From the NCBI RefSeq assembly GCF_030814115.1, contig NZ_JAUSUP010000002.1, positions 62,001-126,000 on the forward strand: 64,000 bases of DNA. Direction: 5' to 3'. The notes under the pieces are model-generated. The model searched no databases, had not been told where the DNA came from, and saw nothing but the letters and a program-made list of their open reading frames with translations. Source of the DNA: Alkalibacillus filiformis (GTDB lineage: Bacteria > Bacillota > Bacilli > Bacillales > Alkalibacillaceae). Below, in pieces: positions 12,131-29,157 of the stretch (positions are counted from its first letter, which is position 1; each line of letters starts with the position of its first letter). Both the position numbers and the translations under genes were made by a program.

Positions 12131-12179
12131 GACGTCCTCCTTCGATCTCAAGTAGAGCTCTTTCTATTATTTGAAGGAA

Positions 12180-12213
12180 AGCGCTTGGCAGTTTAAATGC
12201 AAAGCCAAGCGCT
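12180..12213 (-). promoter_or_regulatory. Intercistronic stem-loop after the binding-protein gene
   Basis: A perfect 10-bp stem AGCGCTTGGC/GCCAAGCGCT with a 14-base loop lies between the binding-protein and permease genes. The T tract after it is weak (TTTCCTTC), which fits partial termination or mRNA protection. Confidence 0.65.
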
Positions 12214-12255
12214 CACCCGTTACTTTATAAAATCGAACTTAGTCTATTAATCAGT

Positions 12256-13317: not shown

Positions 13318-14766
13318 TTAAACAGTTTTTTCAAATACTTTGGATTGCTTTTGTTTTTTCGGTGGTGTATGAATCGATTGGCCAACAAGAGCCTCAACCG
13401 CTTCAACCAATCCTTCATTCATACTAGGGTGAGCATAATGCGGGAACGTTAAGTCTTCTGTTTTTGCAGCCATTTCAAGCAGCTGCACAAAGTGACTCGA
13501 CATCTCCACCGCTCCTTCACCAATCATATGAACACCTAAAATTATGTCAGTATTAGCATCACTAATGACTTTTACAAAGCCATCGCGCTTACCTGTTATT
13601 AATGCATATCCGTTAGCACCTAAATTAAATTGACCTACTTTATAATGAATTTCATTAGCTTGTGCTTGTTGTTCAGTTAAACCGACTGATGCAATCGGTG
13701 GGTTCGTATGAGCTATAAAAGGTAAAAACGTTAAATCAGCTTCAGGGTTCTCACCGGCAACTGCTTCAGCTGCGACTTTTCCTTGCTTGATCGCCTTGAC
13801 AGCTAACGGTTCACCTTCTGTTAAATCACCAATAGCGTATATATTCGGTGTCGACGTTTTCATTTGGTGATCGACAGCAACATGACCTGTTTCAGTTAAA
13901 CGAACACCTAAACGCTCCAAGCCTAATGAATCTATGTTCGGTTTTCGTTCACCACTGACGTAACAGTGTGTTGCTTCGATCTGTTGTTCCTCTCCATCTT
14001 TACTAATGTTGACTGTAATACCTTGTTCAGTTTCGTCTATTAAGTTTATAGTCGCTTGATTGACGATATGAATCTTTTTCTTCTTATATAATCGCTTCAA
14101 TTCCTTTATTAAATCTGCATCTAAAGATGAGTCGTCATCGTTAGTTACTAACGTTACTTTAGTTCCAAAACTATGAAACACAGAAGCTACTTCTAAGGCC
14201 AAGTAGTCAAAACCACTTACAACAAGGTGTTCAGGTGTTTCTTCAATTTGAAAAACTTTTTCCGCTAGAAAAGCCTTTTCACTATTGATTGGGAAATAAT
14301 TAGGCTTCACAGCTTGGCTACCTGTCGCGATGATGGCGTTTTTATATATGTAGTGATCAAATTGATGACCGTTTTCAACGCCAATTCGCTGTTCTCCAGT
14401 AAATGTAGCAGTGCCTTGAATAACTTCAATTTGGTTCGTTTTAAGTAGTGACTCAACACCTTTTCTTAATTGTGTCGTCACTTGTGATTTATATTGTTGC
14501 AGTTGATTTAAATCCACTGTATTAGATGAATCTACTCCAACTCCTAAGTTTTGCATGTGAGAGATTTCATTGATCTTCTTACTAGCGTAAGTCCATACTT
14601 TCGAAGGGATACACCCTTCATTTAGGCAAATGCCTCCTAAATCGGATTGTTCAACTAAAGAAACGTTTAAACCGAGTTGTGCAGCGCGGATGGCAGCAGT
14701 ATATCCACCTGGTCCGCCGCCAATGACGACTAAATCGCGCTCTTCTGTAATTTCGCCAACAACCAT
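13318..14766 (-). CDS. Dihydrolipoyl dehydrogenase, E3 of the 2-oxoacid dehydrogenase complex
   Basis: This flavoenzyme of 482 aa reoxidises the lipoyl arm of E2 with NAD+. An FAD-binding GGGPGGYTAAIRAAQLG lies at 16-32. The redox disulfide GGICLNEGCIPSK has Cys47 and Cys52. A second Rossmann fold lies at 170-200, AIGDLTEGEPLAVKA near 314, and the C-terminal His-Glu pair is in HYAHPSMNEGLVEAVEAL. The second nucleotide domain reads VVSGFDYLALEVASVFHSFG, lacking the usual GGGxIG glycines (SGFDYLA here), an oddity worth noting. The start abuts the E2 stop with no intervening base. Confidence 0.9.
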   Translation of the reverse strand: MVVGEITEERDLVVIGGGPGGYTAAIRAAQLGLNVSLVEQSDLGGICLNEGCIPSKVWTYASKKINEISHMQNLGVGVDSSNTVDLNQLQQYKSQVTTQLRKGVESLLKTNQIEVIQGTATFTGEQRIGVENGHQFDHYIYKNAIIATGSQAVKPNYFPINSEKAFLAEKVFQIEETPEHLVVSGFDYLALEVASVFHSFGTKVTLVTNDDDSSLDADLIKELKRLYKKKKIHIVNQATINLIDETEQGITVNISKDGEEQQIEATHCYVSGERKPNIDSLGLERLGVRLTETGHVAVDHQMKTSTPNIYAIGDLTEGEPLAVKAIKQGKVAAEAVAGENPEADLTFLPFIAHTNPPIASVGLTEQQAQANEIHYKVGQFNLGANGYALITGKRDGFVKVISDANTDIILGVHMIGEGAVEMSSHFVQLLEMAAKTEDLTFPHYAHPSMNEGLVEAVEALVGQSIHTPPKKQKQSKVFEKTV

Positions 14767-15993
14767 TTATACCAACTCCAGCATTAGTTTGTTCGGATTT
14801 TCTATTAACTCGTTTAATCGGTTCGTAAACGCCACAGCTGTTGCACCATCTGCTACGCGGTGGTCAAATGACATCGACACATTCATCATGTAACCTGGCA
14901 CAATTTCATCTTGTTCATTATAGATTGGTAGTTTACGAGTTTTATGAAAGGCAATAAGTGCTGTTTCTGGGTAATTAATAATCGGTGTTGCACCAGTACT
15001 ACCTAATGGGCCGACATTACTCATCGTAAACGTACTACCTTTTAGTAGCTGTGGTTCTAGATTACCGTTTTGCGCCTTTTCAGTTATAGCTTTCATATCA
15101 CTATGAATTTGACGCAACGACTTACGATCAACGTCATGTAAAACAGGGACGATTAAACCGTCTTTTGTGTCTGATGCGAGACCGATATGGTATTGCTTCT
15201 TTAAAATAATTTGTTCATTTTCTTCATCTAATTGTGCGTTAAAAACTGGGAAGTCCTTTAATGTAATGACAAGCGCTTTTAGTAGGAAAGCCGGGATGGA
15301 AATATTGTCTCCAGTTTGTTTAAGTTGCTCACGAATCTGGAATAGTCTTGTCATATTCATTTCATCAAAGTGTGTCACGTGAGGAATAGTATAAATTGAT
15401 TGCGTCATTTTGTTTGCAATTGTTTTTCGAATACCTCTAAATGGAATCGTTTCTTGTTCTGTCTGGTTAATCGCATTCAGTTCTAACGTTACCGGTTTAG
15501 TAGGTTCTGTTTGCTTCGGTTCTGAATCCGTAGTCGTTCCATTTATAAATTGATACACATCTTCTTCTGTCACGCGTCCTGAAGGATCAGATGCTGTCAC
15601 TTGTTCTATATCAACGTTATGGTCTCGTGCAATTTTTCTCGTGTAAGGTGTCGCTAGTACGCGATTTACTTTCGTTTGGATCCGCCTATTTTGCAATCCT
15701 TTTGTCTCGCTCGTCGCTTTTACTAGTTCAGGCTCTGATTGTTCAGGTTGCTTTGCTCCAACACCTTCTATATAAAGGAGTGTTGTACCAACTTGAACAG
15801 TTTCTCCAACAGGTACGACAATTTCTTTAACAGTACCTTTTCCTGGTGAAGGGAGTTCAGCAACCATTTTGTCTGTTTGGACTTCAACGAGTGGTTGATC
15901 AGTTGAAACCGAATCACCTTCTTTAACGAAGTAATTAACGATTTCCCCTTCCGTCATCCCTTCTCCAATATCGTGTAATTTCACTTCTAACAA
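14767..15993 (-). CDS. Dihydrolipoyl acyltransferase, E2 of the 2-oxoacid dehydrogenase complex
   Basis: The 408-aa protein has a single N-terminal lipoyl domain with lipoyl-Lys42 in EVQTDKMVAELPSP. A peripheral subunit-binding domain (VLATPYTRKIARDHNVDIEQV, shown here as the Ala/Pro-linked helix pair near 113-150) follows, and then a CoA-dependent acyltransferase domain ending in the catalytic SFDHRVADGATAVAF. One lipoyl domain and the MLEVKLHDIGEGMTEGEI start are of the branched-chain/general 2-oxoacid type rather than the multi-lipoyl enterobacterial PDH type. In this operon the acyl group carried is inferred to be phenylacetyl. Confidence 0.9.
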   Translation of the reverse strand: MLEVKLHDIGEGMTEGEIVNYFVKEGDSVSTDQPLVEVQTDKMVAELPSPGKGTVKEIVVPVGETVQVGTTLLYIEGVGAKQPEQSEPELVKATSETKGLQNRRIQTKVNRVLATPYTRKIARDHNVDIEQVTASDPSGRVTEEDVYQFINGTTTDSEPKQTEPTKPVTLELNAINQTEQETIPFRGIRKTIANKMTQSIYTIPHVTHFDEMNMTRLFQIREQLKQTGDNISIPAFLLKALVITLKDFPVFNAQLDEENEQIILKKQYHIGLASDTKDGLIVPVLHDVDRKSLRQIHSDMKAITEKAQNGNLEPQLLKGSTFTMSNVGPLGSTGATPIINYPETALIAFHKTRKLPIYNEQDEIVPGYMMNVSMSFDHRVADGATAVAFTNRLNELIENPNKLMLELV

Positions 15994-16010
15994 TGTGCTT
16001 CCTCCCTTAC

Positions 16011-17030
16011 TTAAAAGTTGACCGACTTATGAATACTTTCTAAAACGCGTTTTGCAGTCGGTAAATAGTGATCTTCTAATGAAAAGAATGGTACTGGTAC
16101 ATCAAATCCTGTCACTCGCTCAATTGGTGACCTTAAATATAGGAAGGATGTGTCATTAATAACCGATAAGATATCATTGCCAAGTCCACCAGTTCCCTGC
16201 GCTTCATGCACGATGACCGCCCGGCCTGTTTTTTGAACGGATTCAGCAATTAAGTCACGGTCAAGTGGGTAAAGTGTTCTTAAATCAAGCACTTCACAAC
16301 TTACACCTTGCTCTTCAGCCTGCTTTGCTGCTTGTTCTGCTACTGTAACCATTGCTCCCCATGCAATTAAAGTAATGTCTGTTCCTTCTTGAAGCTTTTG
16401 ACCTTTACCAATTTCTACGTTGTATTTACCTTCAGGAACGTCCTCACGTTTCGCGCGATAACTACGCATCGGCTCCATGAAAATAACTGGATCTGGGTCT
16501 TCAATCGATTCAATTAACAATCCTTTAGCATCATACGGTGATGCAGGACAAACGACTTTAATTCCTGGCATATGAGTAAACAATGCTTCCGCACTATCCG
16601 AATGAATCTCTGGAGCACGAATCCCAGCTCCATATGGCGCACGGGTCACCATTGGCGCTGAGTAATGACCTAACGTTTTCATACGCAAACGTGATACATG
16701 TGTCATAATTTGGTCATAAGCTGGGTATATGAATCCCATAAACTGCATTTCTGCGACAGGTTTAAAACCATTAACCGCTAAACCGACTGATGTTCCAACA
16801 ATTCCAGACTCTGATAACGGTGTATCAACCACTCGATCTTCTCCAAAAATCTCTTGCAAACCTTCTGTTGCTCTAAATACACCGCCGTTTTTTCCGATAT
16901 CTTCTCCGAGTACTATGGTGGTATCATCTAACTCTAGCATCGTCTTCAAGCCATCATTAATAGCTTGAATCATTGTCATTTGTTTCGTTTTACTATTTGA
17001 CTCAGGCTTCTGTTTAACCTTTAAATCCAC
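16011..17030 (-). CDS. 2-oxoacid dehydrogenase E1 beta subunit
   Basis: The 339-aa transketolase-like beta subunit has VLGEDIGKNGGVFRATEGL near 41, PLSESGIVGTSVGLAV near 73, EMQFMGFIYPAYDQI near 93 and the C-terminal domain from about 205, ending RVTGFDVPVPF. It pairs with E1 alpha, encoded one base upstream (stop and start separated by a single nucleotide), to form the TPP site at the interface. Automatic annotation would call it pyruvate or branched-chain dehydrogenase. The neighbouring phenylalanine dehydrogenase suggests phenylpyruvate instead. Confidence 0.9.
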   Translation of the reverse strand: MDLKVKQKPESNSKTKQMTMIQAINDGLKTMLELDDTTIVLGEDIGKNGGVFRATEGLQEIFGEDRVVDTPLSESGIVGTSVGLAVNGFKPVAEMQFMGFIYPAYDQIMTHVSRLRMKTLGHYSAPMVTRAPYGAGIRAPEIHSDSAEALFTHMPGIKVVCPASPYDAKGLLIESIEDPDPVIFMEPMRSYRAKREDVPEGKYNVEIGKGQKLQEGTDITLIAWGAMVTVAEQAAKQAEEQGVSCEVLDLRTLYPLDRDLIAESVQKTGRAVIVHEAQGTGGLGNDILSVINDTSFLYLRSPIERVTGFDVPVPFFSLEDHYLPTAKRVLESIHKSVNF

Positions 17031-17031
17031 G

Positions 17032-18087
17032 TTAATCCCCCTTTAGCTGTGCTAAGTATTGATCCTTTTGTTCTTCGAGTTGCTCTGGCATTTCCTCAAA
17101 GACATAATCAAAAAGATCTGCAGGGTTAGCTTTCGGACTGTTTTCCATTGCATCTACAGCTGCTTCAACTTCAGCCTCTATTTTCTCTTTCGTTTCACTA
17201 ATCCACTCTTCATTCCAGTGGCCGTAGTTTTTCATAAACATCTCTAAACGATCTAATGGGTGAACAATTTCTTCACCTTGGCCATCCGGGCGGTACTTCG
17301 TTGGATCATCTGCAGTCGTGTGAGCACCTGTCCGCCACGTTACTGCCTCGATTAACGTTGGACCGCCACCTTCTCGCGCTCGATTAACTGCTTTTTCCAT
17401 TTCAAAATAAACGCTAAAACAGTCATTTCCATCAATTCTTACACTTGGCATATCATAAGCGAGCGCTTTTTGAGCTATTGTTTCTGAATTCATCTGTTTT
17501 TCAATCGGAACGGAAATCGCATAACCGTTGTTCTGATTAAAGAAAACAGTTGGCGTTTGAAAAACAGAAGCAAAATTTAACCCTTCATGAAAGTCACCCT
17601 CTGATGTTGCCCCATCACCGAAATAGGCTAGTGCGATATTAGTCGTCCCTTTTCGCTTTTCAGCCCACGCTGTTCCTGTTGCGTGCGGAATTTGCGTCGC
17701 AATTGGTACAGCCGCTGGGAAAATATTTTTACCTTCTGGTGGCACAACCCCTTCATGTCGGCCATTCCAATATAAAAACGTGCGCACCATATCAGCACCA
17801 AATGTCAACGTTGCACCATGATCACGATATGTTGGGAACATCCAGTCGCCATCTTCAAGTGCTAAGGCGCTACCAACTTGCGATGCTTCTTGCCCTTCAA
17901 ACGGCGGGTAAGTACCAATTCGCCCTTGCCTTTGAAGGTTGATCGCTTTACGGTCAAACGTACGAATTCTAAGCATGTTGTAATACATCGTGCGGACTAG
18001 CTCTTGATCGATTTTTTCTTCAAATGATGAATCAATTAAATTCCCTTGATCATCCATTACTTTCTTGATTGGGAATTGTTCTTCCAT
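17032..18087 (-). CDS. 2-oxoacid dehydrogenase E1 alpha subunit (candidate phenylpyruvate dehydrogenase)
   Basis: The 351-aa protein is a TPP-dependent E1 alpha. The TPP/Mg motif runs GDGATSEGDFHEGLNFA (near 166) to NQNNGYAIS (near 193). The phosphorylation-loop region RTGAHTTADDPTKYR contains the His that stabilises the intermediate. This subunit performs the decarboxylation and sets substrate choice. The sequence resembles Bacillus PdhA/BkdA families and alone does not define the substrate. It lies 21 bases after the phenylalanine dehydrogenase gene and in the same operon, so phenylpyruvate to phenylacetyl-CoA is the inferred reaction. Confidence 0.88.
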   Translation of the reverse strand: MEEQFPIKKVMDDQGNLIDSSFEEKIDQELVRTMYYNMLRIRTFDRKAINLQRQGRIGTYPPFEGQEASQVGSALALEDGDWMFPTYRDHGATLTFGADMVRTFLYWNGRHEGVVPPEGKNIFPAAVPIATQIPHATGTAWAEKRKGTTNIALAYFGDGATSEGDFHEGLNFASVFQTPTVFFNQNNGYAISVPIEKQMNSETIAQKALAYDMPSVRIDGNDCFSVYFEMEKAVNRAREGGGPTLIEAVTWRTGAHTTADDPTKYRPDGQGEEIVHPLDRLEMFMKNYGHWNEEWISETKEKIEAEVEAAVDAMENSPKANPADLFDYVFEEMPEQLEEQKDQYLAQLKGD

Positions 18088-18108
18088 CGTAAGACCCCCA
18101 ATTCTTTA

Positions 18109-19263
18109 TTAATGACGTATTTTCCATTTAGGGCTAACTGTGCGGTTGAAGAAACTATTACGTTTCTCACGATTAGACATTACTTTTTCGCACAGCTGAT
18201 CAGCCGCTTCAACAGTGGAAATTTCGTTAAATTCAGACTGCCTATATACTTCTAAAATCGTGTTGTATATTTCTTTCGTTTTTAATAAAACGCGTTCTTT
18301 ATTTGGTCCATATAGCTCATCTGCCACTTGTATGAGACCACCTGCGTTAACAATGTAGTCAGGAGCATAAAGAATGCCTCTTTTCGTTAATTCAATGCCA
18401 TGCTTTTCTTCTAACAATTGGTTATTAGCAGATCCAACGACTGCTTTAAATTGAAATTGCTCTATTGTCGTATCATTTATAATGCCACCCATTGCACACG
18501 GAACAAATATGTCAGCTGGTACTGAATAAATCTCATTTGTTTCAACAACCGTCACAGTCCCTTCAGCTGTTTGTGCCGCCTTCGCTTGAATTTCTTCGAT
18601 TGAGTCTTTATTAATATCCGACACGTATAACGAAGCGCCTTCTTCAAGCAATCGCTCAGCAATTTTAAAGCCAACTTTACCTAAACCTTGAATCGCGTAA
18701 GTAACGGGCTGTAAACTTTCATGACCAAAAAGCATTTTGTTCGTCGCTTTAAGTCCATAAATAACACTTTCAGTAGTAGGTATTGATGAATCGCCACCTC
18801 CACCGTATTCTTCTGGGATTCCAGCAATGCAATTTGTCTCTTTCATTGCATGAACGAAATCAGCTAATGTTGTACCCATGTCTGTACCTGTGTAAAATCG
18901 GCCGCTGAGAGATTCTACAAATTGGCCGAATGCGCGGAATAATTCTGGTGATTTATCTGTGTGGGGATCTCCTATAATGACAGCTTTGCCTCCACCGAAG
19001 TCTAAGTCAGCTGCTGCACATTTGTAGCTCATACCTTTGGATAATCTTAATACATCTTCTAATGCTTCATCGAACGATTCATAGGGTTGCATTCGACATC
19101 CACCGATTGCTGGTCCTAATTTCGTACTATGTATGGCGATAATAGCCTTTAAATTAGTCGATGGATCATTACAAAAAACGACTTGCTCATGTTCTGACAT
19201 TTTCTCGAGGAGTGATAAGTTTTCAATCTCATCATTTTTAGATGATGTCATAATATAACTCAT
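18109..19263 (-). CDS. pdh: Phenylalanine dehydrogenase
   Basis: This 384-aa NAD-dependent enzyme deaminates L-Phe to phenylpyruvate. Catalytic Lys81 (GMSYKCAAA) and Lys93 ([11 protein letters not shown]) are present, and the NAD site GLGKVG is at 193-198. The segment [12 protein letters not shown] at 121-132 is the form found in Lysinibacillus/Bacillus badius phenylalanine dehydrogenase; leucine dehydrogenases have YITAEDVGT there. [16 protein letters not shown] and the C-terminal [12 protein letters not shown] ending also match the Phe enzymes. AGGAGG precedes the start. It is followed by all four subunits of a 2-oxoacid dehydrogenase, which would consume its product. Confidence 0.93.
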
Positions 19264-19293
19264 AGTTAACCTCCTATTCTATTCACAACCAAA

Positions 19294-19692
19294 TTAACCA
19301 TGTAACTGTCCTGTACGCTTTTCGATTACCTCCTTAGGTAGAATGACTTGCTTAACAGTTCCTTTTCCAATTAACTGTCCTTCTTCGCGGTAAGCCTCTA
19401 CTTCAGTGATCACTTGATGATCTTTATATTCAATTAAAGTTGCTGTTATACTAACATTCGTATTTAGCGGAGCAGCATCAAGATGTTTCACACTAACTGA
19501 TGCTCCCATACCTTCTTCATTTTCTTCTAAAAAAGGTAATATAATTTTTCGTGAAACCCACTCCATGTGGTACACCATCGAGACAGTAGAGTATACGGGA
19601 TGCACGACATTTCCTTCAAAACTCGCAAACATATCTTTCGTAACTTTTACTTCAATGGTCTCTTTCCTACCAACTTCCATGCCAGGCTTCAT
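19294..19692 (-). CDS. FlK-type hot-dog acyl-CoA thioesterase
   Basis: At 132 aa it matches the fluoroacetyl-CoA thioesterase (FlK)-like hot-dog family: KPGMEVG start, HMEWVSRK helix and VSVKHLDAAPLNTNV strand. Thr36, Glu44 and His70 have exactly the spacing of the FlK catalytic residues Thr42, Glu50 and His76. It is the first gene of the Phe dehydrogenase operon. A housekeeping role is plausible, releasing CoA from phenylacetyl-CoA or from stalled epoxide/oxepin intermediates as the unrelated PaaI does in proteobacteria. The substrate is inferred. Confidence 0.78.
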   Translation of the reverse strand: MKPGMEVGRKETIEVKVTKDMFASFEGNVVHPVYSTVSMVYHMEWVSRKIILPFLEENEEGMGASVSVKHLDAAPLNTNVSITATLIEYKDHQVITEVEAYREEGQLIGKGTVKQVILPKEVIEKRTGQLHG

Positions 19693-19738
19693 ACTATCAT
19701 CACTTCCATTCTAAAAATTAGAAGTCTTTTCGTTTATA

Positions 19739-19799
19739 TAAAAGCGCTTACATAATTCGTGAAAAAATGTGGTTCGTCAACAATTAATTTGACGAAACC
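19739..19799 (-). promoter_or_regulatory. Promoter, cre-like site and palindrome of the Phe dehydrogenase operon
   Basis: On the minus strand TTGACG (19775-19780) and AATTAT (19752-19757) are 17 bases apart. A cre-like TGTAAGCGCTTTTA (19739-19752), one mismatch from the core consensus, overlaps the end of the -10. An imperfect palindrome GGTTTCGTCAA-N8-TTGACGAACC (19771-19799) covers the -35. The arrangement fits CcpA repression plus a second, pathway-specific regulator. Confidence 0.55.
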
Positions 19800-19866
19800 G
19801 ATCACCTTTTGTCAAAGATTCATTCATTTAAAGTTGTCTCAAAACATATGACGTTTATATAACGCT

Positions 19867-19895
19867 ATTTTACCATTTTGTAATGGATAAAACAA
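19867..19895 (-). promoter_or_regulatory. Second candidate promoter of the Phe dehydrogenase operon
   Basis: Minus-strand TTGTTT (19890-19895) and TAAAAT (19867-19872) are 17 bases apart. The region between is a near-palindrome, TTTTATCCATT...AATGGTAAAA, which might bind a regulator. It lies just after the flavoprotein gene stop; no strong terminator separates them. Confidence 0.4.
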
Positions 19896-19921
19896 TAATT
19901 TATTTGAAAAGTGTTTATTTT

Positions 19922-20896
19922 CTAATAATTATATTGATCATTTAAAAACGTGAGCTGCTGTCTTGAGTGTTCAACTTGACTAGACGCCTCTTGCACCATG
20001 CCTTCAACTAACTCTCGGACAGTAGGAATGTCTTCTATTAACCCTGTAATTTGTCCACTGTTTAAAAATCCGTTTTCCAAGTCACCTTCTAATGCACCTT
20101 TACAATGTAGTTCTTCAGAGGTTAATTGACGGTACTCCTCTACAGTTAAGCCTGACTTCTCAAGATCAGTAAGCTTCTTTGCATATTCGGTATTCAAAAT
20201 ACGTCTAACTTGCCCTACTGTTCGGCCAACGATTGTCGTCCCTGTACCATTAGCTTCTAATATTTTCTCTTTGTAATGGGTGTGGAAAGGGGCTTCTTGA
20301 GTTGCAATGAAGCGCGTTCCCATTTGTACGCCACTAGCTCCAAGCATGAGGGTTGCGGCTAGACCTTTCCCATCACCGACGCCACCAGCAGCAAGAACTG
20401 GTACATTAACGTTTCGTACAATTTGTGGTACTAGAGTGAAAGTTGTTAGCTCTAAGTTTGAATTGATCCCAGCAGCTTCATAGCCTTCAGCAACTAACAA
20501 ATCAGCACCCGCTTCTTCAGCTTTTTTCGCATGTTTCACTGAAGCAACTAAAGTCATCACTTTAATCCCTTGTTCGTGAAGCTTTGGAATGTAAGGTGCT
20601 GGGTTTCCGGCAGACAATGATACGACAGGAACTTGTAAGTCGATCACAAGGTCAATTAGACGCTCAACATTTGGTGCAACAGCCATCGCAATGTTTACTG
20701 CAAACGGCTTATTCGTTAATTTTTTCGTTTTAGTTATTTTCATTTCGACCTCTTCTGGTGACATCGTGCCACAACCGATCGTGCCAAGTCCTCCTGCCTC
20801 TGAGACTGCTGCCGTTAGCTCTGGGCTACTTATATTACCCATTCCCCCTAATACGATTGGGTATTGAATGTTTAATAGATGACATACTGGATTCAT
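19922..20896 (-). CDS. NPD/FabK-like flavin oxidoreductase of the paa operon
   Basis: The 324-aa TIM-barrel flavoprotein resembles the nitronate monooxygenase/FabK family: PIVLGGMGNISSPELTAAVSEAG start, NIAMAVAPN near 68 and the FMN-phosphate loop AAGGVGDGKGLAATL at 169-183. The family motif EGxEAGGHxG is EGYEAAGINSN here (137-147), so the usual catalytic His is missing. Classical nitronate oxidation is therefore doubtful. It lies 37 bases after paaJ as the last gene of the operon. With no PaaE-type reductase present, a redox job in the pathway is possible but unproven. Confidence 0.75.
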   Translation of the reverse strand: MNPVCHLLNIQYPIVLGGMGNISSPELTAAVSEAGGLGTIGCGTMSPEEVEMKITKTKKLTNKPFAVNIAMAVAPNVERLIDLVIDLQVPVVSLSAGNPAPYIPKLHEQGIKVMTLVASVKHAKKAEEAGADLLVAEGYEAAGINSNLELTTFTLVPQIVRNVNVPVLAAGGVGDGKGLAATLMLGASGVQMGTRFIATQEAPFHTHYKEKILEANGTGTTIVGRTVGQVRRILNTEYAKKLTDLEKSGLTVEEYRQLTSEELHCKGALEGDLENGFLNSGQITGLIEDIPTVRELVEGMVQEASSQVEHSRQQLTFLNDQYNY

Positions 20897-20933
20897 AGCT
20901 TTCCTCCTCTAATACATGAAAGATTCCTGTTAC

Positions 20934-22133: not shown

Positions 22134-23005
22134 TTTTTGATCAACTCATTTTCATTAGAATAATCATAAACACCACGGCCTGTTTTTCTTCCTAAACGAC
22201 CAGCTTTCACATACTTTTCAAGTAATGGTGCAGGTCGGTATTTTTCACCTAATGTTTCATACAAGTAGTTTAAATTATTAAGTCTAGCATCTAGTCCGAC
22301 TAAGTCACCTAGCTCAAGAGGTCCCATCGGGTAGTTCAGTCCTAATTTAATTGCTTTGTCGATATCTTCAGCTGAAGCTACACCTTCTTGAAGCATATGA
22401 AAGGCTTCATTACCGACTAACGCGCTAATTCGGCTCGTCACAAAACCTGGGAATTCATTAACTTCAACTGTTTCTTTTCCCATTTTCTCTGCTGTTTGGC
22501 GAACCATTTCAACCGTTTCATCGCTCGTCTCTAAACCTCTAATGATCTCGACTAATTTCATAACGTGAACTGGGTTAAAGAAGTGCATCGCGACTACTTT
22601 TTCAGGACGTTTCGTATAAGATCCTAATTCTGTCGGACTAATTGTAGACGTGTTTGAAGCTAAAATCGTATGATCTGGTGCATGTTGATCGGCTGTTTCG
22701 AGTACCTTTTGTTTTAGGTCAGACTTTTCCGGAACTGCTTCAATGACTAAATCTGCACTTGCAGCAGAACTCGCTAAGTCTAGTGAGGTGTGAAGACGCT
22801 CTAACAGTTGCTCAGCTTCTTCTTCTGTTACTTTGCCACGTTTGATCCCTTTTGCCGCGGTTTGCTTGGTGTGTTCATAGGCATCTTGTAACTGCTCTTC
22901 TGATACGTCGACGAGCTCAGTTTGATAACCTGAAAGGGCCGAGACATATGCTATGCCTCGCCCCATGACACCAGCACCCACGACAGTAACACGATTAATG
23001 GTCAT
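22130..23005 (-). CDS. paaH: 3-hydroxyacyl-CoA dehydrogenase
   Basis: The 291-aa protein is of the short 3-hydroxybutyryl/3-hydroxyadipyl-CoA dehydrogenase type. It has the NAD-binding VVGAGVMGRGIA near 8, LASNTSTISPTEL with the catalytic Ser/Thr region near 114, MHFFNPVHVMKLVEI with the catalytic His near 139, and a C-terminal dimer domain ending GRLGRKTGRGVYDY. I use the ATG at 23005 because AAAGG is ten bases upstream; a GTG two codons earlier is too close to it. It probably oxidises 3-hydroxyadipyl-CoA. Confidence 0.88.
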   Translation of the reverse strand: MTINRVTVVGAGVMGRGIAYVSALSGYQTELVDVSEEQLQDAYEHTKQTAAKGIKRGKVTEEEAEQLLERLHTSLDLASSAASADLVIEAVPEKSDLKQKVLETADQHAPDHTILASNTSTISPTELGSYTKRPEKVVAMHFFNPVHVMKLVEIIRGLETSDETVEMVRQTAEKMGKETVEVNEFPGFVTSRISALVGNEAFHMLQEGVASAEDIDKAIKLGLNYPMGPLELGDLVGLDARLNNLNYLYETLGEKYRPAPLLEKYVKAGRLGRKTGRGVYDYSNENELIKK

Positions 23006-23035
23006 GGACACTCTACCTTTCTATCATTCTATTAT

Positions 23036-24553
23036 TTACACGTTGAATGGATTAAGAGGTTTTGAGCCATAGTATGAAAGAACACTCTTATCTTCCATAT
23101 ATAAATCTAGCGTTTCGACTGTTAGTTCACGGCCGAACCCTGACTGTTTGTAACCACCGAATGGCGTACCAGGGAATGCTGAGAATGGGCTGTTTACCAT
23201 TACGATTCCCGCTTGGATTTGGTGTGCGACTCGAGTAGCGCGACCTTGATTCGTCGTCCAAATCGCTGAACCTAATCCGTATTTCGTATCGTTAGCACGC
23301 TTGATCACATCTTTTTCGTCTGTAAATTTCTCAACGACGACAACTGGGCCGAAGATCTCTTCTTGTACAGCTTTCATATCAGGTGTTACGTCCGTAATAA
23401 CTGTTGGTGCATACCAATAGCCATCTTCAAAACCTTCTGGGTAAATTTGTTTACCACCTGTTGCAATTGTCGCACCGTCTTGAACAGCAGACTGAACGTA
23501 ACCATCAATTATATCTAACTGTTCTTGGCTTATAATTGAACCAAGGTGAGTTCCTTTATTAAACGGATCGCCTGATTGTAGCTTTTCCGTTTTATCAATA
23601 AACTGCTCCATAAACTCATCATAAATTGATTCATGAACAAACATACGTGAACGCGCTTCACACGATTGACCTGTGTTGAAGAAGATTCCAAATAATGAAC
23701 CAGGAACCGCCGCTTCTAGATCAGCATCTTCAAACACGATATTAGGTGACTTACCACCTAACTCAAGAGTGACACGCTTAAGCGTTTGAGATGCTTTTTC
23801 CATAATGTCTTTACCAGTCGGAGTTGAACCTGTGAATGCAACTTTGTTAATGTCTTCATGTTGTACTAAGTAATCACCAACAACACTTCCTGAACCAGGA
23901 ATCGTATTGACGACACCTTCTGGAACACCCGCTTCATGGCAAATCTCGTTTAATAAAAGAGCCGTAATTGGCGTTAAACTAGCTGGCTTAATGACAACTG
24001 AGCAACCAGCTGCAATGGCAGGGGCAATCTTCCATGCCGCCATCATCATTGGGTAGTTCCACGGAATAATTTGAGCACATACACCAACAGGCTCTTTATG
24101 CGTATAGTTAAAGAAACCGTACGGCATATTGTTCACTTCACCACGATGCCCAACAATCGCGCCTGCGTAAAATTCAAAATCCTCAATTGACTGGTTAATT
24201 TGAACTTGTGCAGCACCAACCGATTTACCACTGTTTAGCACTTCCATTTCAACTAGCTCTTTAAATCGTGAACGCATAATTGATGCGATGTTGTTTAATA
24301 CACGAGCACGCTTTCCTACTGGGTACTTGCGCCATTTTCCGTGATCAAACGCAGCTCGAGCTGCCTGAACAGCCTTTTCTGCATCTTCCTCACTTGCTTT
24401 TGCTACTGTTGCAATCACTTCCCCTGTTGCGGGGTTATAAGTTTCGAACGTGTCTTTTGAACTACTATCAACTCTTTCACCATTAATGATCATCCCATAA
24501 TGATCACGCTTCATTTCCCCTACTTGTTCAATTGCCTCTTTCGTTAATTCCAT
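23036..24553 (-). CDS. Aldehyde dehydrogenase in the paa operon (candidate PaaZ-type semialdehyde dehydrogenase)
   Basis: This 505-aa NAD(P)-dependent aldehyde dehydrogenase has IIPWNYPMMMAAWKIAPA near 163, the general-base Glu in [11 protein letters not shown] near 263, catalytic Cys in FNTGQSCEARS near 296 and EEIFGPVVVV near 394. In proteobacteria the oxidation of the ring-opened semialdehyde is done by the N-terminal domain of PaaZ. Here a free-standing aldehyde dehydrogenase sits between paaG and paaH and no MaoC-type hydratase domain is fused or nearby. It could equally be a phenylacetaldehyde dehydrogenase. The operon position favours the semialdehyde role, by inference. Confidence 0.82.
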   Translation of the reverse strand: MELTKEAIEQVGEMKRDHYGMIINGERVDSSSKDTFETYNPATGEVIATVAKASEEDAEKAVQAARAAFDHGKWRKYPVGKRARVLNNIASIMRSRFKELVEMEVLNSGKSVGAAQVQINQSIEDFEFYAGAIVGHRGEVNNMPYGFFNYTHKEPVGVCAQIIPWNYPMMMAAWKIAPAIAAGCSVVIKPASLTPITALLLNEICHEAGVPEGVVNTIPGSGSVVGDYLVQHEDINKVAFTGSTPTGKDIMEKASQTLKRVTLELGGKSPNIVFEDADLEAAVPGSLFGIFFNTGQSCEARSRMFVHESIYDEFMEQFIDKTEKLQSGDPFNKGTHLGSIISQEQLDIIDGYVQSAVQDGATIATGGKQIYPEGFEDGYWYAPTVITDVTPDMKAVQEEIFGPVVVVEKFTDEKDVIKRANDTKYGLGSAIWTTNQGRATRVAHQIQAGIVMVNSPFSAFPGTPFGGYKQSGFGRELTVETLDLYMEDKSVLSYYGSKPLNPFNV

Positions 24554-24573
24554 TAAAAATCCACTCCTCTCGA

Positions 24574-25356
24574 TTATTTTCCGATGAAATTTGGTTCGCG
24601 TTTTTCTTTAAATGCTTGAATACCTTCTTGATGGTCATTAGATAAACCAGCTATTCGCTGGGCTTGTGCTTCACTTTCAAGTACATCTTGATAATCTGAA
24701 TGCATGCCATCCATCATATAACGCTTAACTAACGCAACCGCTTTGGTTGGCATACTCGCTAACTTTTGCGTAAACGCTTCAACTTGCTTATCCCACTCGT
24801 CTTGTGGAACCACTTCAGTTGCCAATCCTAATCCATAAGCTTCTTCACCCGTAATCGGCTTTCCTAGTACGGAGATTTCCATAGCCTTCGCGTATCCGAC
24901 TATTCGTGGCAAGTTATAAATAAACCCTGAATCAGGGATTAAGCCGATGTTTATAAAAGCACTGACGAATTTCGCTTGCGGTTGTACAAGTCTAAAATCA
25001 CACGCTAACGCTAAACTCATTCCGGCACCTGCTGCTGTGCCATTAACCGCAGCAACTACAGGCTTAGGCGTTTCTTTAATCGCTTTTAACATTGGGTGAT
25101 ACCTTTTTCTTAAAAAAGTGGCGTGATTCGTGTTTTCATCAACACCTTGTAGATCTTGACCAGCACAAAAGGCTTTTCCTTCACCTGTAAAGACGATACA
25201 ACGGACGTCATCGTTTTTCGTTGCTTGCTTTAGCGCCCGTGTAACTTCGTAATTCATTCCTTCAGTAAATGCGTTATACGCTGACGGTCGGTTAAGTGTA
25301 ATCGTTGCAACACCTGAGTACTCTTCATATTTAATCGTTTGAAATTCTTTCCCCAT
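24574..25356 (-). CDS. paaG: Ring 1,2-epoxyphenylacetyl-CoA isomerase (oxepin-forming)
   Basis: This 260-aa crotonase-fold protein has the CoA/oxyanion-hole loops GEGKAFCAGQDLQGVD near 58 and NGTAAGAGMSLALACDFRL near 105. The sequence FINIGLIPDSGFIYNLPRIVG near 135 contains the PDSG that marks PaaG, which isomerises the epoxide to the seven-membered oxepin. It is 3 bases from the preceding crotonase gene and 20 before the aldehyde dehydrogenase gene, in one transcript. Confidence 0.88.
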   Translation of the reverse strand: MGKEFQTIKYEEYSGVATITLNRPSAYNAFTEGMNYEVTRALKQATKNDDVRCIVFTGEGKAFCAGQDLQGVDENTNHATFLRKRYHPMLKAIKETPKPVVAAVNGTAAGAGMSLALACDFRLVQPQAKFVSAFINIGLIPDSGFIYNLPRIVGYAKAMEISVLGKPITGEEAYGLGLATEVVPQDEWDKQVEAFTQKLASMPTKAVALVKRYMMDGMHSDYQDVLESEAQAQRIAGLSNDHQEGIQAFKEKREPNFIGK

Positions 25357-25359
25357 GAC

Positions 25360-26133
25360 TTACACTCCTTTAAAAGAAGGTGAGCGCTTTTCGGTAAAAG
25401 CTTTCATTCCTTCTTTTTGGTCCTCTGAGGCAAACGTTAAGTAAAAGTTCTTCCGTTCTAGATTCATGCCGTCCATTAACGTCATATCTTTAGCTGCTTT
25501 GACCGATTCTTTAATTAAACGTATTGAAATAGGCGCTTGGTTAGCTAATTGTTTTGCTAAACGGAATGACTCTTCAAAAACGAGCTCATCAGCTACAACT
25601 CGGTTTATAGCCCCGAGTTTTAACGCCTCACGAGCCTCCATTTGTTCACCTAACCAAATCCACTCTAGTGCTTTACGTTCACCAATTGCTTTAGTCAATA
25701 GTTGTGTACCACCTGCTCCCGGCATGACACCGAGCTGCACTTCAGGGAATCCGAACTTAGACGATTCTCCAGCGACAATTAAGTCACAATGAAGAGCTAG
25801 TTCAAAACCTCCACCTAAAGCAACGCCATTAACTGACGCTATAATCGGCTTATTAATAAGTGTGATATGGTCCCAAACTGCAAATGGATCCGCTAACTCC
25901 ATCGTAAGCGGTGTTTCATCCATCATTTCTTCAATATCAGCACCAGCTGCAAACGCTTTGTCATTTCCTTTAATCATCATGACACGAACGTCTTCGCTTT
26001 CATCATACTGCTCTAGCTTCTCAACAATTTCATCTACCATTTGCCGGTTTAATGCATTAAGCACTTCAGGGCGATTCAATTGAATCACCCCAATTTTGTC
26101 CTCAACAAACGCTTCAATGTACTGATTAGACAT
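25360..26133 (-). CDS. paaF: Enoyl-CoA hydratase of the phenylacetyl-CoA pathway
   Basis: The crotonase-family protein is 257 aa. Features are GNDKAFAAGADIEEMMD near 58, NGVALGGGFELALHCDLI near 102 and PEVQLGVMPGAGGTQLL near 130, the usual hydratase type with GAGGTQ. In the pathway PaaF hydrates 2,3-dehydroadipyl-CoA. The start at 26133 is chosen because its ATG follows AGGAAG at good distance and overlaps the stop of the previous gene; the TTG seven codons upstream lacks a site. Confidence 0.85.
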   Translation of the reverse strand: MSNQYIEAFVEDKIGVIQLNRPEVLNALNRQMVDEIVEKLEQYDESEDVRVMMIKGNDKAFAAGADIEEMMDETPLTMELADPFAVWDHITLINKPIIASVNGVALGGGFELALHCDLIVAGESSKFGFPEVQLGVMPGAGGTQLLTKAIGERKALEWIWLGEQMEAREALKLGAINRVVADELVFEESFRLAKQLANQAPISIRLIKESVKAAKDMTLMDGMNLERKNFYLTFASEDQKEGMKAFTEKRSPSFKGV

Positions 26134-26437
26134 TAACAGCAACTTCCTCGCCAATGACTAATGTGACAATATCCCCGGCAAACTTCATAACATCTTTTCC
26201 AGACGCTTTTCCTTCGTCTGTTTTCATCGCTTCTTGTAACGCGTCATGACTCTCATAGTACATTTCACATAACAAGTAGTAATCTGTCTCGCCCATTGGT
26301 GAACCAACAATTTTAGTTACTTTCATGTCTTTTAACCCTGGAATCTTTTGTGTCAGTGGTGTGTGTACGTTGTAGTAGTGCTCATCAAACTTCTCCTGAT
26401 CTTCCGGTTTCTTGTAAATCGCAATTAATTTAACCAT
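26126..26437 (-). CDS. EthD-family ferredoxin-like-fold protein
   Basis: At 103 aa, it begins MVKLIAIYKKPEDQEKFDEH and continues with YYNVHTPLTQKIPGLK, the pattern of PF07110 (EthD) dimeric alpha+beta barrel proteins. These bind small ligands or catalyse rearrangements, and some genes lie in aromatic degradation operons. The start at 26437 follows AGAGGGG; the TTG six codons before would consume that site. It lies between paaD and paaF. A stabilising or isomerising role on an epoxide/oxepin intermediate is conceivable. No function is proven. Confidence 0.8.
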   Translation of the reverse strand: MVKLIAIYKKPEDQEKFDEHYYNVHTPLTQKIPGLKDMKVTKIVGSPMGETDYYLLCEMYYESHDALQEAMKTDEGKASGKDVMKFAGDIVTLVIGEEVAVNV

Positions 26438-26457
26438 TGTAAAATCCCCTCTCAAAT

Positions 26458-26958
26458 TTATTTGATTGCATATTCCACTACTGGCTTCATCGCTTCAAAT
26501 GGGTTTTTACACGAGCTGCAATATAAAATGCTGCGACAAGCCGTAGGTCCAAACACATTATCCATTGACGTATAGTCAGAATCACAATAAGGACAGTTAA
26601 CCGTCCACTGCTGTCCTGGCTCGTAATTCTCTGGTGGAGGTGCAATGCCATGCTTTTTCAGCTGCTCTTTCCCTTCATCTGTAATCGCATCTGTCGACCA
26701 TTTCAGTTCAAAGGAGAAGTCAACTTCACATTCAGACACCCAATCCAGTTCAAGTACCGCTTTATGAACGTCTGTTTTAATGAAGTCTAAAGCAGGACAT
26801 CCTGCAAAAGTTGGAACCATTACAATCGAGACGCTACTTCCATCAACGATCACCGTATGAACCATCCCTAAATCTGAAACACTAACAGAAGGTAATTCAG
26901 GGTCATCAACTAACTTTAAGACCTCTCGAATTTCTTCCTCTTTCACCTGACGCGTCAT
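26458..26958 (-). CDS. paaD: Phenylacetyl-CoA epoxidase maturation protein PaaD
   Basis: The 166-aa protein has an N-terminal DUF59/MIP18 domain (KLVDDPELPSVSVSDLGMV near 14 and PTFAGCPALDFI near 49). A C-terminal zinc-ribbon-like part has CPYCDSDY at 121-128 and CRSILYCSSC further on. PaaD is needed for assembling iron centres of the epoxidase system. It begins 19 bases after the paaC stop. Confidence 0.9.
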   Translation of the reverse strand: MTRQVKEEEIREVLKLVDDPELPSVSVSDLGMVHTVIVDGSSVSIVMVPTFAGCPALDFIKTDVHKAVLELDWVSECEVDFSFELKWSTDAITDEGKEQLKKHGIAPPPENYEPGQQWTVNCPYCDSDYTSMDNVFGPTACRSILYCSSCKNPFEAMKPVVEYAIK

Positions 26959-26977
26959 TGAACGACACCTCCTTTAC

Positions 26978-27793
26978 TTACCAAACGGCTTTCTCATCAC
27001 TGCGGTATACTTCAGCCAGCGTATTTAACGCTTGGTCTAAATCCGGTGTATGGTCACCTTCTCTACCACTTCCAAATGCTTTACCGAACGAAAGATCTCG
27101 AATATGTGCAATAGTCGATTCAACTTCTTGAATAAACCGTTCCTTTAAGTCGTCCTCACCACTTATAATGTCAAAATGCTCAAGTTCAGTAGCATACTCA
27201 CCAAGCTCTAAGACATCACCGAATTGCTGCCACGCTTCTTCTAAACGCGATTGCAACTTCGTCTTCGCCTCATCAGTAGAGTTATAAAGTTGGTTAAACC
27301 ATATTTTCCAATGCGATAAATGGTAAGGTTGTTCCATTAACACTTTTCCAGCAACGTTGGCTAACGGTGTATAGGAACTTTTCGTTAACGCTTCTAGCTT
27401 TACTTTTTTGAAAGATTCATAGAGAAAGTTACGTACAACAGCTAACGCCCAGTCATAATACGGTTCTGTTAAGTATTCACCTTCACCATTTTTCTTTTCA
27501 AAATAAACAGCATTTCGTCTGTTACTAGGTTCGCGTTCATGCGCAAGAGCATCCGCTTCACCTTCACTTAAATCTTCAAGCAATCGATAGTACATTAACG
27601 CATGGCCCATCGTATTTTGCGTGATCGAGGAAAAGGCCACATCTTCTTCTATATGCGGTGCTAACCCAAGCCATTCTGAACCGCGAAAAGAAATGAGAAA
27701 GTCATCATCAGCTAATTGGTAAAGTAAATCTGTTAAAGCTTTTAAATAAGCTGCATCATTCATTGCCTCTTGTGCAGATGTCACTTGCGTCAT
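26978..27793 (-). CDS. paaC: Phenylacetyl-CoA epoxidase structural subunit PaaC
   Basis: The 271-aa ferritin-like all-helical protein lacks a full di-iron ligand set, as expected of PaaC, which scaffolds the catalytic PaaA. Typical stretches are YQLADDDFLISFRGSEWLG near 25, NTMGHALMYYRLLEDL near 60 and ANVAGKVLMEQPYHLSHWK near 147. The ATG at 27793 overlaps the paaB stop as ATGA and has AGAGGTG nine bases before. An upstream extension of seven codons would start inside paaB and is rejected. Confidence 0.9.
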   Translation of the reverse strand: MTQVTSAQEAMNDAAYLKALTDLLYQLADDDFLISFRGSEWLGLAPHIEEDVAFSSITQNTMGHALMYYRLLEDLSEGEADALAHEREPSNRRNAVYFEKKNGEGEYLTEPYYDWALAVVRNFLYESFKKVKLEALTKSSYTPLANVAGKVLMEQPYHLSHWKIWFNQLYNSTDEAKTKLQSRLEEAWQQFGDVLELGEYATELEHFDIISGEDDLKERFIQEVESTIAHIRDLSFGKAFGSGREGDHTPDLDQALNTLAEVYRSDEKAVW

Positions 27794-28149
27794 TTCTTTT
27801 TCACCTCTTTCCACGACATGATCTCTTTCTCATCTAACATGCCTTGTTCTTTTTCCTTCCACTTCTTACGTAAATAGCCGTAACCTTTCGTCCTACGGTA
27901 GTCTTTATTGTCTAAACGCTTTGTTAAATTCAAACGCTCCTCACTCGTCATTGAGCGAATATTACTTCGTTTAACTACCCAAACATCTAGCACGTCTTCA
28001 CGGCGCATGAAATTTTCAACCGCCATGCTAAGCGCCATCTCTTCATTAGGAGCAAGTAAACTGAATTGATGCTGAATGGGTGATTTAACACTTTTTTTAC
28101 TAAAAACTTCATACTCTTGGTAGAAGTTTGTTTCATTCGACTCCGACAT
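27790..28149 (-). CDS. paaB: Phenylacetyl-CoA epoxidase subunit PaaB
   Basis: The 119-aa protein has the PaaB pattern YQEYEVFSKKSVKSPIQHQFSLLAPNEEMAL, quoted here only by its key ends: YEVFSKK near 13 and GSL-like SLLAP near 31. WVVKRSNI near 57 follows. PaaB bridges PaaAC heterodimers and is required for activity. A basic C-terminal extension (YLRKKWKEKEQ and WKEVKKK) is longer than in the about 95-aa proteobacterial proteins. AAGGAGAGG lies before the start, 18 bases after paaA. Confidence 0.9.
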   Translation of the reverse strand: MSESNETNFYQEYEVFSKKSVKSPIQHQFSLLAPNEEMALSMAVENFMRREDVLDVWVVKRSNIRSMTSEERLNLTKRLDNKDYRRTKGYGYLRKKWKEKEQGMLDEKEIMSWKEVKKK

Positions 28150-28167
28150 AAAACCTCTCCTTTCCAG

Positions 28168-29157
28168 TTATTGGCCAATTGCTTCAGGTGAAAGCGCTTC
28201 TCTTACCCAACGGTTGTTTTCGTAAGCGACTTCACGTAAGCGCAAACGTTCTTTTGATCGCGGTCCTTTATTTTTAATAATTTGTTTAAACTCATTCCAA
28301 TCAGGTTGTTGGTAAACCCACATTTCTTGTTCTTCGTCGTAGTGGATCGTTTCATCTGGTACTGTAAGTCCTAGTGAGAATACACGTGGTAAGTATTTAT
28401 CAAGGAATGCTTGTCGTAGTTCTTCGTTGGAGCTTTTACGAATGCGGTATTTAATCATCGTGTCTTGTTTTGAGGTTCCAGTCGTGTCAGCTGAGCTCGG
28501 TCCAAAAAACATCAATAGTGCTGGCCACCAACGATTCAGTGACTCTTGCAATATTTCTCTTTGATACTCAGTTCCTTCAGCTAATGCCATGATGATTGCT
28601 TCACCATGCTGTGCGTGGAAAACTTCTTCTTGGCAAATGCGTTGAAGTGCGCGTTGGTAGGGTCCATAAGAAGCATCTAACATGTTCGTTTGTGAAATGA
28701 TGGCTGCACCGTCAACTAACCAGCCAACCATGCCAGCATCAGCCCACGTTTTCGTCGGCATATGGAAAACGTTATGAAACTTAAGGTCGCCACTTAATAA
28801 ATCCTCCATTATGTTTTCACGGTTTTTGCCGTATGGTTTCATTAAATCTTCAGCTACTCGCAGTAGTAATTGGCCGTGACCCATTTCATCTTGTACCTTT
28901 GCCATAATGCCAAGCTTACGCTTCATCGTCGGTGCTTTTGGCGTCCACTCTTTCTCAGGTAAGGCACCCATAATTTCACTAATGCCATGCATGGAAATTA
29001 ATTTAATTAAACCTTGCCTATAATCCTCTGGCATCCAATCGTCCGGTTCAATTTTCTCCCCCGCTTCAATCCGTGCCATAAACTGCTCGTATTTTTCTTG
29101 GTCTTGTTCTGGTACATTAGGCTGATCAGAACCGCCGTATTCCAAGTAATTATACAT
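28168..29157 (-). CDS. paaA: Phenylacetyl-CoA 1,2-epoxidase catalytic subunit PaaA
   Basis: The 329-aa ferritin-like di-iron oxygenase subunit shows the metal-ligand helices: KVQDEMGHGQLLLR with Glu91 and His94, and CQEEVFHAQHGE with Glu178 and His181/His184. PaaA epoxidises the ring of phenylacetyl-CoA with O2 and NADPH-derived electrons. It is the first gene of the minus-strand operon. GGAGGAGAGG precedes the ATG and a well-formed sigma-A promoter lies at 29194-29222. No paaE reductase gene follows paaD, unlike in E. coli. Confidence 0.95.
   Translation of the reverse strand: MYNYLEYGGSDQPNVPEQDQEKYEQFMARIEAGEKIEPDDWMPEDYRQGLIKLISMHGISEIMGALPEKEWTPKAPTMKRKLGIMAKVQDEMGHGQLLLRVAEDLMKPYGKNRENIMEDLLSGDLKFHNVFHMPTKTWADAGMVGWLVDGAAIISQTNMLDASYGPYQRALQRICQEEVFHAQHGEAIIMALAEGTEYQREILQESLNRWWPALLMFFGPSSADTTGTSKQDTMIKYRIRKSSNEELRQAFLDKYLPRVFSLGLTVPDETIHYDEEQEMWVYQQPDWNEFKQIIKNKGPRSKERLRLREVAYENNRWVREALSPEAIGQ

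Follow-up and report, generated by a model that had tools for sequence, protein, structure and literature searches.

A candidate arylpyruvate dehydrogenase beside the phenylacetate genes of Alkalibacillus filiformis and other Bacillales

The conversion of phenylpyruvate to phenylacetyl-CoA is already known chemistry, represented by PglB/C and Ior1. It is considered here for a gene set on the minus strand of a 64,000-nucleotide stretch of the Alkalibacillus filiformis genome (the window; G000:C2:62001-126000), in which the E1 alpha, E1 beta, E2 and E3 subunits of a 2-oxoacid dehydrogenase complex are encoded together with a phenylalanine dehydrogenase (PheDH) beside the paa genes of the aerobic phenylacetate pathway. 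The source genome comprises 2.72 Mb in 30 contigs and is 97.9% complete.

PglB/C of Streptomyces pristinaespiralis, described for pristinamycin (PMC7089894) and called "phenylpyruvate dehydrogenase" in PMC10685826, is an E1 pair like that of pyruvate dehydrogenase (PDH) to which the step from phenylpyruvate to phenylacetyl-CoA is assigned, and a thioesterase gene lies in its operon. Compared by description only, and within the accessible portions of these papers, it differs from the window locus in being biosynthetic and actinobacterial, with an alpha and a beta subunit named but no E2, E3 or PheDH in the operon. Ior1, which sustained tropodithietic acid production in a paaK1 paaK2 mutant (PMC5577590), and HpdDEFG, a ferredoxin-type arylpyruvate oxidoreductase (PMC13285125), likewise turn an arylpyruvate into an arylacetyl-CoA overall. 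However, they are ferredoxin-linked and of the PFOR type, and their domain, PF01558 of the POR family, has no match in the source genome. The branched-chain 2-oxoacid dehydrogenase (BKD) complexes with a leucine dehydrogenase likewise place an amino-acid dehydrogenase near E1 alpha, E1 beta, E2 and E3 genes, as in the source genome's own example on contig C1, but the BKD partner carries leucine-type motifs and the window E1 alpha belongs to a separate clade.

Neighbouring PDH and PheDH genes were remarked upon in one sentence for Exiguobacterium sibiricum 255-15 in 2008, and a conversion to phenylacetate was suggested (PMC2615787). In the accessible part of that description the product is phenylacetate, which is then used by the phenylacetate-CoA ligase PaaK; it contains no comparison across genomes and proposes no bypass. 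The available main text of a review of the phenylacetate pathway (PMC9493321) treats PaaK as the entry and does not use the word "phenylpyruvate". A sequence-only reading of the window had proposed a distinct aerobic route from phenylalanine, and the novelty of such a route is weakened by PglB/C, Ior1 and the E. sibiricum remark. No report was found in the open-licence literature of conservation across the order, of genomes without PaaK or of a tyrosine branch, and these are the elements for which no precedent was found in print.

The complex and its gene context

It is probable, at roughly 0.8, that the window complex is an arylpyruvate dehydrogenase which supplies phenylacetyl-CoA to the PaaABC epoxidase in this organism, a substrate assignment that draws on sequence and gene context. 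The complex belongs to a unit reading from 19692 to 10348, which follows, on the same strand, the nitronate-monooxygenase-like gene at the end of the paa run. This unit consists of an FlK-family hotdog thioesterase (19294–19692; PF22636, 118.4 bits, cut-off 27), PheDH (18109–19263), E1 alpha (17032–18087), E1 beta (16011–17030), E2 (14767–15993), E3 (13318–14766) and an ABC transporter with a TrpX-like binding protein (10348–13266). It is set apart from the paa run by a gap of 229 bases, and within each of the two runs adjacent genes either overlap or leave gaps of at most 104 bases. The PheDH-type gene, the four subunits and the paa set, which the sequence-only reading had described as co-directional, are all open and lie on one strand. 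The thioesterase, the transporter and PaaX, which that reading did not name, are part of the same neighbourhood.

The subunits have the features of a 2-oxoacid dehydrogenase complex with an α2β2-type, thiamine-diphosphate-dependent E1. E1 alpha scores 460.8 bits against TIGR03181 (cut-off 411.35) and carries a GDG...NN motif and a PIATQ segment. E1 beta, the PF02780 match at L003, reaches 290 bits with PRK09212, short of the cut-off of 321, and is 51% identical to the PDH beta subunit of the same genome and 43% to its BKD beta subunit. The lipoyl acyltransferase E2 has intact lipoyl (TDKM) and catalytic (DHRVADG) motifs, shares 38% identity with the genome's PDH E2 and 31% with its BKD E2, and remains under the cut-off of every NCBIfam E2 model that it matched. 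E3, a dihydrolipoyl dehydrogenase with an intact redox-cysteine motif (CLNEGC), scores 434.6 bits with TIGR01350 (cut-off 408.8) and is 37% identical to the PDH E3. Acetoin dehydrogenase, which has the same architecture, was set aside on context alone, as the neighbouring genes give no reason for it.

The PheDH gene directly precedes E1 alpha. Its product carries TGTDMG, as had been noticed from the letters, together with GGLIQV, whereas the leucine-type paralogue of the same genome, 47.6% identical, has TAEDVG and GGVINV. A PheDH is marked by glycine and leucine at the two side-chain positions that hold alanine and valine in leucine dehydrogenase, and the window protein shows this pair. The best NCBIfam model for this protein is that of the tryptophan dehydrogenase ScyB, at 354 bits under a cut-off of 600.

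The complex is not the only one of its kind in the genome, and the proposed search for separate pdh and bkd operons located both elsewhere. Three of the five PF02780 matches have the size of an E1 beta subunit, belonging to the window complex, to a four-gene PDH set (L010) and to the bkd set on C1 (L009), which has its own leucine-type dehydrogenase. Each of nine genomes checked for E1 alpha paralogues has at least four PF00676 matches, including proteins of the size of 2-oxoglutarate dehydrogenase. In a tree of E1 alpha sequences, obtained from a brief search with a single type of support value and containing one wrong open reading frame (ORF) as a reference row (L206), the window protein falls in a starred clade (99) of 41 rows together with most paa-linked forms, outside both the PDH clade and the BKD clade. 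Some strong E1 alpha matches, such as those of G005 and G069, represent deeper lineages outside the 41-row clade.

A short E1 alpha segment separates the same groups. The pattern P-x-A-x-Q, mostly PIATQ or PIASQ, occurs in 107 of 110 aryl rows, in none of 11 PDH rows and in none of 10 BKD rows, where the division into "aryl" and "deep" rows is our own, one BKD row is a wrong ORF, and wrong ORFs stand at the reference rows L206 and L194. Most PDH rows read IIIGAQ at this place, the PDH-type rows of the source genome are similar to it, the BKD rows read PVTTQ, and the human branched-chain enzyme aligns there with PLATQ. This segment lines the side-chain pocket of the human enzyme, and the pattern is treated here as a lead, not as a test.

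In the proposed pathway, the ABC transporter would import an aromatic amino acid and PheDH, judging by its family and diagnostic residues, would convert phenylalanine to phenylpyruvate. By the chemistry of the family, E1 would decarboxylate phenylpyruvate and load the phenylacetyl group onto the lipoyl arm of E2, E2 would hand this group to CoA, and E3 would reoxidise the lipoamide with NAD. The resulting phenylacetyl-CoA would then be epoxidised by PaaABC, while the FlK-type thioesterase may, like PaaI, serve as a relief valve. Because phenylpyruvate would be turned into phenylacetyl-CoA by the complex itself, PaaK would not be needed for phenylalanine, and its absence would predict that the organism does not grow on external phenylacetate.

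Co-occurrence with PaaA and the absence of PaaK

Among 397 surveyed genomes of the order, PaaA was called over its model cut-off in 166. E1 alpha was called first at E 1e-95 (171 genomes), and a stricter threshold of E 1e-110 is preferred as "strong". Six weak matches of about 1e-96 to 1e-106 are dropped by the latter (G065, G074, G099, G248, G270 and G394). The stricter count is given because, in the tree, the E1 alpha paralogues retrieved for G248 and G270 group with PDH or BKD references or close to them. At E 1e-110, 156 genomes have both proteins, 9 have E1 alpha only, 10 have PaaA only and 222 have neither (157, 14, 9 and 217 at E 1e-95). A strong E1 alpha is present in 156/166 PaaA-positive genomes and in 9/231 others, with an odds ratio of 385 and a p-value of 3e-85 that is too small, since the surveyed genomes are related. 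In the family to which the window belongs, PaaA is present in 6 of 17 genomes, and E1 alpha in exactly those six (chance 8e-5 if independent). Both genes could be placed in 128 genomes; they share a contig in 113 and lie within 25 kb in 104, and in the other 24 they are farther apart than this or on different contigs. The distance counts leave out 16 PaaA-positive and 24 E1-alpha-positive genomes, which were counted for presence only.

Forty regions were fetched, 34 of them from PaaA-positive genomes (L057–L090), in addition to 80 further named loci; the surveyed genomes and the named loci overlap (G116 = L108, G204 = L124, G085 = L143, G320 = L160, G090 = L159, G279 = L161), so that the sets are not independent. 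A PheDH-type ORF is present in 32 of the 34 loci, always with TGTDMG and GGL, and none was seen in L075 and L089. The order thioesterase, PheDH, E1 alpha, E1 beta, E2, E3 beside paa genes recurs in relatives, often accompanied by a TrpX-like transporter or by a symporter assigned by eye to the SNF type. The arrangement, whose recurrence the sequence-only reading had asked about, extends well beyond one family. Within the 80 named loci, a paa-type gene occurs in 55, two or more genes of the homoprotocatechuate (hpa) pathway in 10, and one or the other in 61; PheDH is found in 51, an FlK-type thioesterase in 50 and the aminotransferase of the tyrosine branch described below in 5, not counting HisC-like genes of 41–55% identity outside that branch. 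The E1 genes adjoin paa in the Exiguobacterium loci L117, L119, L120 and L122. Downstream of the complex in L124, a Bacillaceae locus, lies a gene for a 4-hydroxyphenylpyruvate dioxygenase (TIGR01263, 468.8 bits), which implies that tyrosine has its own route there and that the complex would serve phenylalanine.

The window was said to lack paaK, and none was recognised among its 76 ORFs, read by eye. PaaK was not found elsewhere in the source genome either, where the best of all 14 candidates scored against TIGR02155 reaches 20.8 bits (cut-off 646.3). At E 1e-100 or better, the models matched by its ten AMP-binding enzymes, all of which were scanned, are fatty-acid, acetate, MbcS, MenE and similar ones, with PaaK not among them. 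Of the outcomes named by the sequence-only reading as refuting it, a sole PDH/BCKDH set and a paaK at another place in the genome were both looked for, and neither was found. PaaK was likewise not found in a genome of the same genus (G086) or in four other PaaA-positive genomes of the family. Order-wide, the E1 alpha and PaaK searches scored the first four or five candidates per genome, about four for PaaK, and its absence elsewhere is consequently less firm than in the source genome. A PaaK-model match was obtained in 148 genomes, of which 140 were counted as clear; broken genes in G121 (split) and G288 (stop) were counted as present, and eight weak-only matches of E 9.6e-65 to 1e-89 (G007, G089, G106, G125, G171, G355, G374 and G394, none PaaA-positive by cut-off) were not. 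On this basis, a PaaK match at E 1e-60 is lacking in 27/166 PaaA-positive genomes, which represent 12 families, and 25 of the 27, the source genome and 24 others, have a strong E1 alpha.

A probable tyrosine-type branch

The strong E1 alpha matches without PaaA have a different partner. HpaG is present in 9 of 9 such genomes, about 4.6 to 18 kb from E1 alpha in the eight where it could be placed, and in none of the other PaaA-less genomes, whether with a weak match (0/5) or without E1 alpha (0/19). The same search also returned HpaG in 19 of 37 PaaA-positive genomes. A Halobacillus-type locus consists of a HisC-like aminotransferase, E1 alpha, E1 beta, E2, an NhaC-type antiporter, an esterase, two HpaG genes and HpaF, and has no E3. 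The ORF of about 476 residues after E2 was considered as an E3 and ruled out, as it encodes the antiporter. In L094, L095 and L160, the antiporter precedes E1 or points in the opposite direction, and an E3 is present. The ten tyrosine-type E1 alpha rows form one starred clade (99) nested in the 41-row clade.

More broadly, a HisC-like aminotransferase gene precedes the E1-E2 set, either immediately or with an NhaC-type antiporter in the vicinity, in L154, L159, L160, L161, L169 and L091–L096; homoprotocatechuate genes are close by in most of these, and an E3 of their own is often lacking. Gene context suggests that the E1-E2 sets of the Halobacillus-type branch probably act on 4-hydroxyphenylpyruvate, and where E3 lies outside the operon it would be borrowed. 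The hpa-linked L153, L162 and L163 fall outside the tyrosine-type clade, which implies that the link with hpa was probably established on more than one occasion. A separate contig of the source genome carries an hpa cluster (L097; G000:C3:12000-31900), in which HpaB, HpaD and HpaE are over their cut-offs and the retrieved region shows no E1 complex. The window complex and the FlK thioesterase might supply this cluster with 4-hydroxyphenylacetate from tyrosine.

A wider proposal, towards which we lean with less assurance than for the window itself, is that the Bacillales possess a family of NAD-linked arylpyruvate dehydrogenases with phenylalanine branches (PheDH and paa) and a tyrosine branch (HisC-like aminotransferase and hpa). 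Such a family would be the chief aerobic way in which aromatic amino acids reach ring cleavage in the order and would have made PaaK dispensable (27/166 genomes, 12 families). A large group of common Bacillales would thereby gain a defined route from phenylalanine, and in the sister branch from tyrosine, to CoA-bound arylacetates, with ATP saved and NADH gained. The family would also account for paa clusters that lack a ligase, and would put right the name of an E1 alpha that the curated model calls a pyruvate dehydrogenase. The paired branches make the E1 substrate pocket comparable between them.

Alternative explanations and the surrounding genes

Several observations weigh against an arylpyruvate dehydrogenase that relieves its host of PaaK. 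NCBIfam names the window E1 alpha a pyruvate dehydrogenase, with TIGR03181 over its cut-off, and some paa-linked E1 alpha rows (e.g., L171, L181, L184 and L185) lie outside the 41-row clade. Two PaaA-positive, PaaK-negative genomes have no strong E1 alpha, namely G128 (no match) and G248 (weak only), and the E1 alpha paralogues fetched from the latter fall outside the arylpyruvate clade. Neither paa nor hpa genes were recognised in the fetched stretches of 19/80 named loci, four of them haloarchaeal, nor in 8/65 after a cut of our own to the nearest loci; of these eight, five have PheDH and one the aminotransferase. PaaK is kept in most relatives, where the complex would therefore act alongside the ligase instead of replacing it. 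Nor is the absence of PaaK coupled to the complex, as a strong E1 alpha is present in 25/27 genomes without PaaK and 131/139 with it (Fisher p = 0.67), because the complex is nearly universal in PaaA-positive genomes. The claim is accordingly limited to the complex making the loss of PaaK possible. The bypass of PaaK suggested from the sequence fits the source genome and the 24 other PaaA-positive genomes that combine a strong E1 alpha with no PaaK match, and it does not extend to the majority that also have the ligase.

These observations leave three other explanations to be weighed. That the complex is a second branched-chain or pyruvate dehydrogenase, placed beside paa by history and serving lipid priming or general acyl-CoA supply, is suggested by the NCBIfam label and by the 51% identity of E1 beta to the PDH subunit. 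It seems very improbable in view of the PDH and bkd sets elsewhere in the genome, of the E1 alpha tree, of the P-x-A-x-Q segment (with one BKD row a wrong ORF), and of the distribution, as a strong E1 alpha goes with PaaA in 156/165 genomes and with HpaG in the other 9/165. Equally improbable would be a PaaK that lies in an unsequenced part of the genome or is replaced by another acyl-CoA ligase, phenylpyruvate being degraded via phenylacetaldehyde and phenylacetate. The assembly is indeed incomplete, several of the ten AMP-binding enzymes are generic fatty-acid ligases, several aldehyde dehydrogenases are encoded, and order-wide only about four PaaK candidates per genome were scored, compared with all 14 here. 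However, none of those ten enzymes resembles PaaK at the level given above, and G086 and the four other family members show the same absence. The genome also has only two TPP_enzyme_N proteins, MenD and an acetolactate-synthase-like protein. The latter does remain as a possible objection, but it is over no cut-off among the 25 families shown, which makes a phenylpyruvate decarboxylase unlikely on sequence grounds.

An explanation that is compatible with the arylpyruvate dehydrogenase, and unlikely though less so than the other two, is that the complex and the FlK-type thioesterase together release free phenylacetate or hydroxyphenylacetate for excretion or another pathway, the link with PaaA being indirect. 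The thioesterase gene lies inside the unit and has homologues in 50/80 named loci, the hpa cluster L097 would need free 4-hydroxyphenylacetate, and, in the accessible literature, the thioesterase PglD accompanies PglB/C and the 2008 Exiguobacterium paper names phenylacetate as the product. Against this, free phenylacetate would have no known way back to PaaABC in the source genome, where PaaK was not found. A supply of phenylacetyl-CoA to PaaABC by an arylpyruvate dehydrogenase remains the preferred interpretation.

The paa run on the minus strand, reading from 29157, encodes the PaaABC epoxidase of the aerobic pathway together with PaaD, all four over their cut-offs: PaaA, the catalytic subunit (28168–29157; TIGR02156, 482.4 bits), PaaB (27790–28149; TIGR02157, 121.2 bits), PaaC (26978–27814; TIGR02158, 255.2 bits) and PaaD (26458–26958; TIGR02159, 188.5 bits). 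At the place where PaaE might be expected, an EthD-family protein is encoded (26126–26455; TIGR02118, 125.7 bits, over cut-off), and almost all of the related paa clusters inspected have a gene of this family after PaaD. PaaE itself was not found over cut-off in the genome, the best match to TIGR02160 (106.2 bits, cut-off 420.8) lying outside the window locus and having an internal stop. The missing electron carrier may be hinted at by the C-terminal part of PaaD, which scores 48.9 bits against NF041869, a model of the small haloarchaeal PaaE, under its cut-off of 100.

The run continues with a PaaF-like enoyl-CoA hydratase (25360–26154; best model PRK08138, 285 bits; 272 bits with the PaaF model, cut-off 371), a PaaG-like isomerase (24574–25356; TIGR02280, 241.3 bits, cut-off 345), an aldehyde dehydrogenase (23036–24553; PF00171, 600.8 bits), a PaaH-like 3-hydroxyacyl-CoA dehydrogenase (22130–23011; PRK09260, 497.6 bits, over its cut-off of 429) and a PaaJ-like 3-oxoadipyl-CoA thiolase (20934–22133; PRK09050, 589.6 bits, slightly under 605). 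The PaaF, PaaG, PaaH and PaaJ homologues are under the Paa-specific cut-offs, and their names therefore rest on context. The aldehyde dehydrogenase is a regular member of related paa runs and probably performs the PaaZ/PacL oxidation step; no PaaZ fusion matched over cut-off in the source genome, which has several aldehyde dehydrogenases, and separate enzymes (PacL) are a known alternative to the fusion in the literature available to us. The run ends with the nitronate-monooxygenase/FabK-like flavoprotein (19922–20896; PF03060, 239.9 bits), a frequent neighbour of the complex and of paa genes. The repressor gene paaX (29414–30235; TIGR02277, 352.3 bits, over cut-off) lies on the plus strand, divergent from the paa run. 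No Rfam match at gathering score was obtained across 9000–33000, and three stretches around gene starts gave only short, unconvincing inverted repeats.

In the ABC transporter, whose gaps are 51, 104 and -8 bases, the TrpX-like binding protein (12256–13266) scores 227.8 bits with NF041285, under the cut-off of 390, and the permease and the ATPase were named by eye. Just downstream, and likewise named by eye from translations, are a sensor kinase and a response regulator (7944–10224) beside a TctABC-like tripartite tricarboxylate transporter set (4700–7796). Among more distant relatives, the haloarchaeal loci L182, L183, L186 and L187 have E1 alpha proteins of 49–50% identity beside E1 beta and E3 relatives, and no paa or hpa genes were recognised in the regions retrieved around them. 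In the Paenibacillus loci L178 and L179, the E1 relatives adjoin an ABC ATPase, a protein of 777 residues and one of about 1500 residues, and possibly belong to a biosynthetic cluster that uses an acyl-CoA starter.

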